43,620 nucleotides of DNA. It comes from Methylovulum sp. (GTDB lineage Bacteria > Pseudomonadota > Gammaproteobacteria > Methylococcales > Methylomonadaceae). Position 1 is the stretch's first letter; every line of letters begins with the position of its first letter. The notes under the pieces were generated by a model. That model was given only the letters and a program-made list of their open reading frames with translations, ran no database searches and was not told the DNA's origin. Below are positions 10,612-13,525 of the stretch, in pieces. The DNA lies in the NCBI GenBank assembly GCA_030653435.1, contig JAURZI010000056.1:1-43620 (forward strand), given 5' to 3'. The position numbers and the translations under genes are program-made.

Positions 10612-11440
10612 CGCAGGCTTATATGCCGGTATGCAGGGCGTTGAATGGATAGCATTGTACCTTGCGCTGGGTGCTTTCGTTGGCTTTATGGCGGGATTAC
10701 TCGGCATTGCTGGTGGTGGCATACTGGTGCCTTGGCTGGTATCCATTTTTACTTACCAGGGTATCAGCATAGGTCATGTCGTCCATTTGGCATTAGGAAC
10801 GTCATTGGCCTGCATGGTCATTTCTTCTACAGCCAGCATCCGTGTACATGCTTCCCGAGGCGCCGTCGTGTGGCAGGCCGTTGGCGGCATGGCCCCAGGG
10901 ATTATTCTGGGCGCCTTTCCGGCTACCCAGATTGCCGCCAACGTTAACCCAACCTACATTGCCGTATTTTTTGCGCTGTTCATGGCCGTTGTCTCAGGAC
11001 AAATGCTTCTTAATTGGCAACCGAAACCCAGCCAGAAACCGGTAAGCTTTCACGGATTAATGGTGGCTGGCGTTGGGATCGGATCGATATCCGCACTTGC
11101 CGCAGTGGGTGGCGGATTTCTCGCCGTTGCCTACCTGGGCCATAAGAATGTGGACATAAAAAAAGCCATTGGCACTTCAGCTGCAATTGGATTTCCCCTC
11201 GCTGTCACGGGTGCTGTCGGCTACCTGATTAGCGGCTGGTCTAAAACATTGGGTAATCCTTATGCCCTTGGATTCATTGATGTGCCGGCATTTTTGGCAA
11301 TATCGCTTGCCAGTTCCATTGCGGCTTCCTATGGCGCTCGCTGCTCCCATAGTTTGCCTGAAGCGCATTTGAAAAAGATTTTCGCCGTTATCTCGCTGGT
11401 TTTGAGTATAAAGATGCTAGTTCCGTTTGTTCAATTTTGA
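10604..11440 (+). CDS. TauE/SafE family sulfite/organosulfur exporter
   Basis: This is a polytopic inner-membrane permease with about eight predicted helices. The duplicated glycine-rich motif is visible: LALGAFVGFMAGLLGIAGGGILVPWL near the N-terminus and SALAAVGGGFLAVAYLGHKN near the middle, followed by KAIGTSAAIGFPLAVTGAVGYL. The family exports sulfite, sulfoacetate and other sulfur anions. The open frame extends back to 10526 inside tpm. I prefer the ATG at 10604, which overlaps the tpm stop; an ATG at 10631 is also possible. Co-transcription with tpm under a MerR regulator suggests a shared role in handling a sulfur or selenium compound, which is inference. Confidence 0.85.
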   Translation: MASAGLYAGMQGVEWIALYLALGAFVGFMAGLLGIAGGGILVPWLVSIFTYQGISIGHVVHLALGTSLACMVISSTASIRVHASRGAVVWQAVGGMAPGIILGAFPATQIAANVNPTYIAVFFALFMAVVSGQMLLNWQPKPSQKPVSFHGLMVAGVGIGSISALAAVGGGFLAVAYLGHKNVDIKKAIGTSAAIGFPLAVTGAVGYLISGWSKTLGNPYALGFIDVPAFLAISLASSIAASYGARCSHSLPEAHLKKIFAVISLVLSIKMLVPFVQF

Positions 11441-11772
11441 ACTAAGCATTTAGGTATTCTTTGGGGATATGTTGATAGCATTTACACCTAAAGACTGGAG
11501 CACACTGTCTTTGGCTCCGCCATCACTGTCAGCTAGTCCAGCCATTTGCGTATAGAGTGCAACCCGCGCCAATCCGGAACCCAGCTCTACAATCGAAACG
11601 GCCCATGGGGGCGGATTTTAAACCAGCCATCATCAATTTCACGCATTCGATACATGATGGGTGGTATTTTTCACGAACCGTTACGGTAACCTATCACATC
11701 CGCCGCCATGTCTTTTTGATATTCTGTACTCGCAGTAAAAACCAACCGTCTACAACAATTGGAGCGTATAAC
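11441..11772. other. intergenic region upstream of the DUF6345-like gene
   Basis: There is no confident gene on the plus strand. On the minus strand, 11450-11617 is an open stretch of about 55 codons without a start, ending in TAA, whose product (VALYTQMAGLADSDGGA is part of it) looks like ordinary protein. A second frame just upstream of it is open and meets it at a run of C residues. This may be a frameshifted gene remnant of unknown family. The promoter of the downstream secreted pair should lie in the right half, but no clear boxes were assigned. Confidence 0.3.
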
Positions 11773-12525
11773 ATGTTTATTAATCAAAAAAAGCTGATAT
11801 CCGGCTTATGTCTACTTACTGTCAGCGCCGTTTCTGTACCCCATGCCATCGCCGCCGACCGGGAAATCGGCGGTTATGTCGACCGTGCGGAAAGCCGGTT
11901 TGTCCGTAATGTCTGGAATTTCGTCAAAAACTTCCAGGGCTTTCAAACTATCGGCCCTAACCGTTATAAAAACGTCCAATACTATTGGGCCGAACCGTTC
12001 ATGTTCGACAGTTCACATGAAAATTATGTGGACAAAATGGATCTGGCATTTTTCGCAGGCCACGGTAGCCCATACTATATCCAAACCAACCAAAGCACCG
12101 GGCAAGGCGTCGATTTACGCACCGTCCCTGCTTACGGTGATTTAGCCAACAAAGGCGATCTGGAATTCATGGTTATCGAATCTTGCAGCACCGTTGCATC
12201 TGCGCCTGATGCTGCGGATTGGTGGACGCCGTTTTCGCCGATGTTCCAAGGCCTGCACCAATTGGTCGGCTTTCGTACCCTCAGTTATTCTGACAACAGC
12301 ATTCCGAACAATTATGCCAATAAGCTAAAAGCAAACGGCGGCGTGTGGCAATCATGGTTTGCGGCCATCAATGAAGAACGTTACTGGGCAGGCAGCTCAA
12401 ACGCCGCTTATCCAGGCATGGGCAGTGCAATCATGTACACGTCCACTGAAAATGACCGGCTCGGCTCTTATGGCGCGGATCCCGCCGGTGGCACAGCAGG
12501 CATGAAAACCTGGTGGCAGTATTAA
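11773..12525 (+). CDS. exported DUF6345-like protein with caspase-like His/Cys signature
   Basis: The 250-residue product starts at the ATG at 11773, which has GGAG eight bases upstream and begins a clean signal peptide (cleavage near AIA-AD, residues 27-28). The frame is open further back to 11557 but that extension has no signal peptide. The mature part has a hydrophobic strand ending in His-Gly, LAFFAGHGSP with His97, and a second hydrophobic strand ending in Glu-Ser-Cys, FMVIESCSTV with Cys138. That is the catalytic layout of clan CD cysteine peptidases (caspase, legumain, gingipain). It resembles, from memory, the family called DUF6345. A likely propeptide-like partner follows 25 bases later. 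Peptidase activity is inference. Confidence 0.7.
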   Translation: MFINQKKLISGLCLLTVSAVSVPHAIAADREIGGYVDRAESRFVRNVWNFVKNFQGFQTIGPNRYKNVQYYWAEPFMFDSSHENYVDKMDLAFFAGHGSPYYIQTNQSTGQGVDLRTVPAYGDLANKGDLEFMVIESCSTVASAPDAADWWTPFSPMFQGLHQLVGFRTLSYSDNSIPNNYANKLKANGGVWQSWFAAINEERYWAGSSNAAYPGMGSAIMYTSTENDRLGSYGADPAGGTAGMKTWWQY

Positions 12526-12550
12526 TTCCAACAATTAACGGAGCACAATC

Positions 12551-13525
12551 ATGAATGCGAAAAAACTTATCTCGACCTTACTTTTAGTAGCCGGAAACAC
12601 CGGCTTTATCGGTAGCCAAGCCTTAGCGGCAACCACCACCGAGAACTTGTTTCTCTACAGTTTTGAAGAAACCCCGGTACTGGATGTAGACACATCGAAA
12701 TCATTGATGAAACAATTTCTGGACGGCGAATCGGCCGATAGGCTTGTCCCCTCCCTGGACAAGACTGTGCGTTATGTCTCCCCTAAAGATCCCAATACCA
12801 CGTTCGAGCATAACCTTAACACCGGCGACATCCGTTTCCACCGCAATTTTGCACGCTACCTGGGTGATTTCAAACCCGAACTCCCTTCTACCGAAGAAGC
12901 GCTAAAAGCAGCGGAAATGTTTCTCGAAGAGAATAAATTGCTGCCGTCTAACCAGGCAGAATTAAAAATCGCGCATATCGGCGGCTTACGCGCCACCAGC
13001 GTCATTGACGGCAAGCAGGCGGGACCTATTATCGACAAGCTGATCACCCTTAATTATGCACGGGAAATTAATGGCTTGCCTGTCATCGGCCCAGGCTCCA
13101 AAATACTTGTGGATATTGGCGAAAAAGGGGAAGTATTGAGCTTGACTAGACATTGGCGAGAATTATCGCCTAAAGCACGGCAAATCAGCCCTGAAGAAAC
13201 TTTTTCTCTGGATGAAGCGCAACGCTTAGCTAAGATACAAATCAGCAAAGAATTTGGTAAAAGGGCGACTTTTGAACTGCTAGGGTCACAGACTGCTTAT
13301 TTCGACAATAATGGTCGGCTGTTACAACCGGTGTATGCCTTTCAGGCTAAAGTTTTCTTGCCCGACCAACAAACTGAAGCGTTCGAATATATCAGTGTGA
13401 TTCCCGTCCTGAGAAAATCACCGGAACTACTGAACCTGACCAAGCTGGATCCCAAAGCATTGCGTACAATAATAAGCACCGATGAAACAACACTGCCCGG
13501 CGGTACAACCAGAAAACCTGACTAA
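12551..13525 (+). CDS. exported propeptide-like protein (FTP/PepSY-like fold), partner of the DUF6345-like gene
   Basis: This 324-residue protein has a signal peptide (cleavage near ALA-AT, about residue 27) and a GGAG ribosome-binding site. The mature part has the feel of the N-terminal propeptides of secreted metallopeptidases. A helical segment (EEALKAAEMFLEENKLLP) is followed by YAREINGLPVIGPGSKILVD and GEVLSLTRHWREL near residues 175-215. Later comes AYFDNNGRLLQPVYAFQAKV near 255-275. In M4-type peptidases such FTP/PepSY units act in cis as inhibitors and folding aids, but no peptidase domain is fused here. It lies 25 bases behind the caspase-like protein and both share the same leader style, so a trans-acting chaperone or inhibitor is plausible. 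The function is unproven. Confidence 0.6.
   Translation: MNAKKLISTLLLVAGNTGFIGSQALAATTTENLFLYSFEETPVLDVDTSKSLMKQFLDGESADRLVPSLDKTVRYVSPKDPNTTFEHNLNTGDIRFHRNFARYLGDFKPELPSTEEALKAAEMFLEENKLLPSNQAELKIAHIGGLRATSVIDGKQAGPIIDKLITLNYAREINGLPVIGPGSKILVDIGEKGEVLSLTRHWRELSPKARQISPEETFSLDEAQRLAKIQISKEFGKRATFELLGSQTAYFDNNGRLLQPVYAFQAKVFLPDQQTEAFEYISVIPVLRKSPELLNLTKLDPKALRTIISTDETTLPGGTTRKPD

Follow-up and report, generated by a model that had tools for sequence, protein, structure and literature searches.

A caspase-fold protein of family DUF6345 and its propeptide-like neighbour as a putative zymogen split over two chains

Legumain (family C13), the caspases (C14) and CHAT represent clan CD of the cysteine peptidases, which are characterized by a caspase-haemoglobinase fold and by a His-Gly and then a Cys placed after successive core strands, the His and the Cys of legumain being 41 residues apart. 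SpeB and the staphopains, which are secreted cysteine proteases with a specific inhibitor encoded next door, belong to families C10 and C47, neither of which is part of clan CD. The FTP-PepSY propeptides of M4 and M36 metallopeptidases act as inhibitors and as foldases. YpeB and YycI are regulators rather than propeptides: SleB, the partner of YpeB, lyses peptidoglycan, and the target of YycI/YycH is a kinase. Within clan CD, legumain contains a C-terminal LSAM domain in cis (PMC4357240), and the propeptides of the bacterial cell-surface gingipains (C25), also encoded in cis, inhibit the mature enzyme if supplied to it as separate molecules (PMC3677877). The gene for SpeB adjoins that for Spi, a propeptide analogue, and staphopain genes adjoin those of the staphostatins (PMC2873492). 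For PepSY proteins, inhibition through binding to a partner located either on the same protein or on another one has been proposed (PMC2954215), and YpeB may keep SleB inactive until germination begins (PMC13393411). In malaria parasites, the stand-alone propeptide-like protein SUB1-ProM, encoded beside protease genes, is described as inhibiting a subtilisin-type enzyme in trans (PMC6993865).

Here we report on two neighbouring genes, D and P, encoded on the + strand of a 43,620-nucleotide stretch of Methylovulum sp. DNA (GenBank assembly GCA_030653435.1, contig JAURZI010000056.1, positions 1 to 43,620), which is referred to as the window. An earlier note on this DNA had described two adjacent genes separated by 25 bases, both with signal peptides and GGAG ribosome-binding sites, and reading of the sequence, together with a helix at residues 3-20 in the AlphaFold model of D, confirmed this arrangement. 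The features of the pair are the following:

11761..11764, + strand: ribosome-binding site GGAG of D, by direct reading
11773..12525, + strand: D gene, ATG start, 250 aa; exported DUF6345 protein with a caspase-haemoglobinase fold, predicted cysteine peptidase
11773..11853, + strand: inferred signal peptide of D, residues 1-27; hydrophobic N terminus by eye, with helix 3-20 and a core strand from 28 in the model
12061..12063, + strand: codon of D His97, predicted catalytic histidine; 51/51 rows of alignment A4, right behind strand 91-95
12184..12186, + strand: codon of D Cys138, predicted nucleophile; 51/51 rows of A4, right behind strand 132-137
12540..12543, + strand: ribosome-binding site GGAG of P, by direct reading
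12551..13525, + strand: P gene, ATG start, 324 aa; exported propeptide-like partner with PepSY/FTP-type alpha+beta units
12551..12628, + strand: inferred signal peptide of P, residues 1-26, by eye
12821..13360, + strand: P residues 91-270, aligned to FTP and PepSY of metallopeptidase propeptides by family profile comparison

An alternative upstream start, the GTG at 11557, would extend the frame of D, but the ATG is favoured because it is associated with a ribosome-binding site and a signal peptide; the relatives L005, L006, L009 and L012 have their longest open frames beginning exactly at the residue of D's ATG. Judged by sequence, the N termini of D and P look like Sec signals. Between positions 11300 and 13700, eight putative promoter sites were detected against 3.5 expected, none of them on the + strand ahead of D, and three terminators against 3.1 expected; the GC content across the pair showed nothing unusual. 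The surrounding genes in the window encode a TauE-type permease, a TPMT-type methyltransferase and, convergently, a LysM/SLT lytic transglycosylase.

D was assigned to DUF6345 by Pfam (E 7.4e-23). The earlier note had pointed to a His-Gly (His97-Gly98) and a Glu-Ser-Cys (Glu136-Ser137-Cys138) at the ends of two hydrophobic strands, with 41 residues from His to Cys, as the layout of clan CD, and this observation held up: both strands are present in the model, and His97, Gly98 and Cys138 do not vary across the 51 rows of A4, an alignment of the window's D with 50 relatives. As His and Cys are, in addition, both kept in 64 of the 66 distinct D loci (window included), the motif cannot be attributed to chance. 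An AlphaFold model and a fold search confidently predict a caspase-haemoglobinase fold for D, including the caspase-like sheet on which the interpretation of the note depended. According to this model, D would be a clan CD-like protein in which His (then Gly) and Cys end the successive core strands 91-95 and 132-137. The fold match covers residues 25-233 of the 250 and starts directly after the signal peptide, and D is therefore predicted to have no propeptide in cis; the alignment with legumain, residues 28..233, leaves only 17 residues to D's end at 250, and a legumain-type C-terminal LSAM domain is absent from D. In the Foldseek search CHAT was the sole match below E 0.001, while unrelated EF-G, WrbA and Rab folds were mixed among the caspases at E values of 0.008 to 0.1. 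DUF6345 was matched by all 51 D proteins of A4, and the 16 Pfam families listed for these proteins (E up to 1) contained no peptidase family, the sequence model of the legumain family C13 being likewise unmatched. D thus resembles legumain, the caspases and CHAT in its predicted fold and motif and differs from them in having neither a Pfam sequence match to peptidase families nor a prodomain in cis. A single-sequence search with D gave no matches, and designed propeller proteins, the sole matches of D in the PDB profile search (a short HG-containing stretch, best E 0.014), were taken as chance. One D homologue (L020:1363-2277) has a Ser replacing the catalytic Cys and is perhaps a natural inactive form; its neighbour matches P only through the eye-seeded profile mentioned below.

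The second protein had been regarded in the note as FTP/PepSY-like, a view upheld by family profile, shuffles and fold although P itself matched zero Pfam families, and hence no FTP or PepSY model above the cut-off. The FTP model was matched at E up to 1 by 9 of 50 P relatives (best 2e-4). When compared with FTP propeptides, the P-family profile matched at 95.1 % (E 3.1e-8, 150 columns) and a P profile from alignment A5 alone at 94.7 %, against 0.1 % for a control profile of D, and 100 column shuffles scored at most 16.7 versus 62.6 for the P family. Residues 91-270 of P align colinearly to FTP plus PepSY and are preceded by a further N-terminal stretch; the best-conserved part is residues 161-206 (mean column identity 0.59), and the tail is poorly conserved (0.30). 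Fold matches included YpeB, EUBREC_2869, YycI and the vibriolysin entry 3nqy chain A (174 residues), which we take to be the vibriolysin propeptide. On the basis of profile homology and fold, and with no Pfam match of its own, we place P in the FTP/PepSY propeptide superfamily; by fold it stands as close to YpeB and YycI, PepSY-type regulators built of several units, as to a metallopeptidase propeptide. In contrast to the M4/M36 propeptides, P is a separate chain with a caspase-fold partner and the additional N-terminal stretch, and the lytic enzyme and the kinase with which YpeB and YycI/YycH are associated differ from D. No PDB sequence was matched by profile search with P at E up to 10, and the only match of a single-sequence search, a peroxisomal protein (E 0.13), was taken as chance. 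A stand-alone FTP protein of 193 aa with a lipobox-like start was noted in L102 (L102:1231-1812) and L099, about 1 kb from an M4 peptidase with its own FTP propeptide; it is possibly another trans-acting propeptide.

Co-occurrence of the two genes across genomes, which the earlier note's proposal called for, is apparent at several levels. D loci were gathered by profile search of genome contigs with the closer alignment A3, the wider A1 being too divergent, and the closest named relatives of D belong to Methylococcaceae, Methylobacter and Methylovulum, which makes a Methylococcaceae methanotroph the most likely host. Of 50 named loci, 49 have P downstream of D and on its strand; in the remaining one (L044) the contig stops 367 bases past D. 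The next most widely common neighbour family reached 6 of the 50. The spacing is close, with a median of 27 bases (59 loci, range -109 to 125). Merging of all fetched loci rendered 66 distinct D loci, window included, of which 57 contain P directly downstream and three have it fused with D when P is recruited from the window's P by E value only; L013, L014, L016, L018, L020 and L044 yielded no P in that search. A profile seeded with eye-picked neighbours (including those of L007 and L017-L020) adds L018 and L020, giving 59 adjacent and three fused of 66. No P match away from D was detected among 1016 open frames of the D loci, a set that cannot reveal a P far from D because these loci were fetched as D carriers; distant P genes are covered by the whole-genome search. 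There, 12 of the 301 genomes from the order contained P, each of them one of the 15 that have D, and P without D occurred in none of the 301; the genomes being kin, such pairing counts are not independent events. The other three D-bearing genomes are those of L013, L014 and L016. The whole-genome search, made with A5, did not list the genes next to the second copies of D in G212 and G225 (L017, L018) either. Three further loci stand out: in L016:1-2652 a DUF6345 domain belongs to a very long open frame of 1693 aa, with no P found nearby; L071:1393-3252 is a second, distant D-P pair of Thiorhodococcus mannitoliphagus, in addition to that of L058; and in L004:343-2037 an integrase-core (transposase-type) gene adjoins a D whose 5' part lies outside the open frame, next to an intact P.

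Fused homologues, for which the earlier note had suggested a search, exist in both orders, P-D in L015 and L090 and D-P in L089. L013 and L014 were not counted as fusions because the tail behind their D resembles P weakly (29 %, score 32.6). The D relatives are labelled as six phyla, and their tree needs 11 label changes where the minimum is 5. As genome bins can be contaminated, transfer is likely but not proven. Of 15 orthologous loci in the host genus, three (the window, L104 and L111) have D-P adjoining the transglycosylase gene; in the other 12, among which L115 is cut short on that side, the pair was absent from flanks of up to 1500 bases. In L105 (G082 contig 3), also of this genus, the pair is located about 6 kb from the transglycosylase gene and not beside it, so its place varies within the genus. 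P evolves faster than D (mean distance 0.71 versus 0.50, a relation that holds for 99.9 % of pairs). The correlation between their distance matrices, 0.87, could also result from shared history alone. An origin from phages or plasmids was dropped because no D relative was found in phages and plasmids (protein search) or in viral contigs (A3), and a role in defence was dropped because PADLOC matched neither D nor P.

A joint model of the two proteins was obtained from L023, whose D is 81-82 % identical to the window's and whose P is cut at 288 aa by the contig end. In this locus D and P share one frame, and reading through the single stop makes one chain; the joint alignment of 69 rows combined 19 read-through pairs, counting that of L023, with 50 rows of D or P alone. 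For this single read-through chain, modelled without a decoy control, AlphaFold2 gave a pLDDT of 87.4 and a pTM of 0.85. As a much lower pTM is to be expected for two domains of similar size without a defined mutual placement, the packing of D and P is predicted to be specific and the complex a defined one. In the loops around the active site, pLDDT did not rise from the window's D alone to the joint L023 model, two slightly different proteins, and no docking site is shown by this comparison.

Taken together, the predicted fold, the pairing, the fusions and the relation of P to propeptides give computational support to the split zymogen envisaged in the earlier note; peptidase activity, inhibition or foldase action, a release trigger and a substrate are what we infer from there. 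We regard it as probable that D is a secreted peptidase of the caspase/legumain fold and that P folds or stabilises it and silences it in trans, the two chains together constituting the zymogen. In such a scheme, D would be exported as a cysteine peptidase relying on His97 and Cys138 and lacking a built-in propeptide; P, exported from the next gene, would meet it outside the cytoplasm, where its PepSY/FTP units would act on D as foldase and lid. P would keep D folded or stable and inactive, and its removal or displacement would free the enzyme. D as a protease also fits with the third gene that follows D-P in 6 of 50 loci, all from Bacteroidota, since the six products pass the Pfam cut-off for Kazal inhibitors; those of L045-L047, the three whose sequences were read completely, start like lipoproteins:

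L045:6888-7256, L046:7115-7462, L047:6996-7319, L048:6910-7251, L049:5246-5584 and L050:6910-7263: Kazal third genes, encoding small proteins

A different third gene, with an FGE-sulfatase domain, was seen after D-P in 3 of 3 loci from two Armatimonadota and one Planctomycetota (L052:7108-7950, L053:3561-4565 and L054:7434-8255).

The resulting arrangement is reminiscent of SpeB-Spi and of the staphopains with their staphostatins in that a conserved partner gene lies beside the gene of a predicted protease. D, however, has a predicted caspase fold and no propeptide of its own that P could copy, whereas Spi is a propeptide analogue, and P is a PepSY/FTP-like protein of 324 aa while the Bacteroides inhibitors related to Spi are described as having 116-138 aa (PMC2873492). 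SUB1-ProM shares with P the stand-alone state and differs in protease class, and gingipains share with D a bacterial host and, by prediction, the clan CD type but have their propeptide in cis.

Several other explanations, not all of them mutually exclusive, have to be weighed. P might serve mainly as a stabiliser or membrane anchor rather than as an inhibitor, with D active while bound to P and kept folded and in place, which we consider unlikely. A simple lipobox pattern was found in 9 of 49 P homologues (eight Bacteroidota, one Planctomycetota) versus 2 of 50 D homologues, a sign that some hosts may tether P to the membrane. That pattern is absent in the other 40 and was not seen in the window's P, and the inhibitory as well as folding activity of metallopeptidase propeptides also argues for more than an anchor; the fold match with YpeB, which may likewise stabilise its enzyme (PMC6660665), leans the other way. 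Rather less likely, D could be a transpeptidase or a caspase-fold scaffold, regulated by P and not hydrolytic. A GPI transamidase subunit and the asparaginyl ligases of plants are indeed among the fold matches of D, from which transpeptidation and hydrolysis cannot be separated, and L020 lacks the Cys, but the retention of His and Cys in 64 of 66 loci makes a pure scaffold unlikely. It is improbable that P is a dedicated substrate of D whose cleaved form is the working product: clan CD enzymes are site-specific (PMC12445089) and a substrate gene adjacent to its protease would show the same linkage, yet fusion in both orders and the confidently placed joint model suggest a stable packing, an inhibitory role has been ascribed to PepSY/FTP domains (PMC2954215), and the tail of P is poorly conserved. 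Finally, adjacency by itself would not prove contact, but mere co-transcription of two separately acting proteins is very hard to reconcile with a pair kept across six labelled phyla while other neighbours change, fused in both orders, never reduced to P without D in 301 genomes and modelled jointly at the pTM given above.

Within a limited literature collection, we found no publication on DUF6345 or PF19872 and no pairing of a PepSY protein with a caspase-type enzyme. Proteases accompanied by a separate propeptide-like inhibitor are already known as a concept; what we did not find in that collection is the combination of a caspase-fold enzyme and a partner chain akin to metallopeptidase propeptides and to YpeB, widely kept and fused in both orders. 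Beyond the split zymogen proposed for the window, we tentatively advance, with close to even confidence, that DUF6345 is a peptidase family of clan CD type that has so far gone unrecognised. As a rule, its zymogen would be divided: a catalytic chain lacking a prodomain would be folded and kept silent in trans by a PepSY/FTP-type chain with kinship to thermolysin propeptides, the two genes forming a compact cassette found in six phyla, with fusions in either order in some lineages and a second inhibitor, of Kazal type, joining in one Bacteroidota lineage. Our analysis proposes a testable function for a family of unknown function and, if the proposal is true, the caspase/legumain clan gains a family in bacteria. 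Propeptide-type domains, best known in metallopeptidases, apparently form here a stand-alone partner for an enzyme of an unrelated class. Given how steady the pairing is, structural studies could start from an enzyme and its putative inhibitor as a ready pair, and D-P may provide a natural test of how propeptides turn into trans inhibitors.
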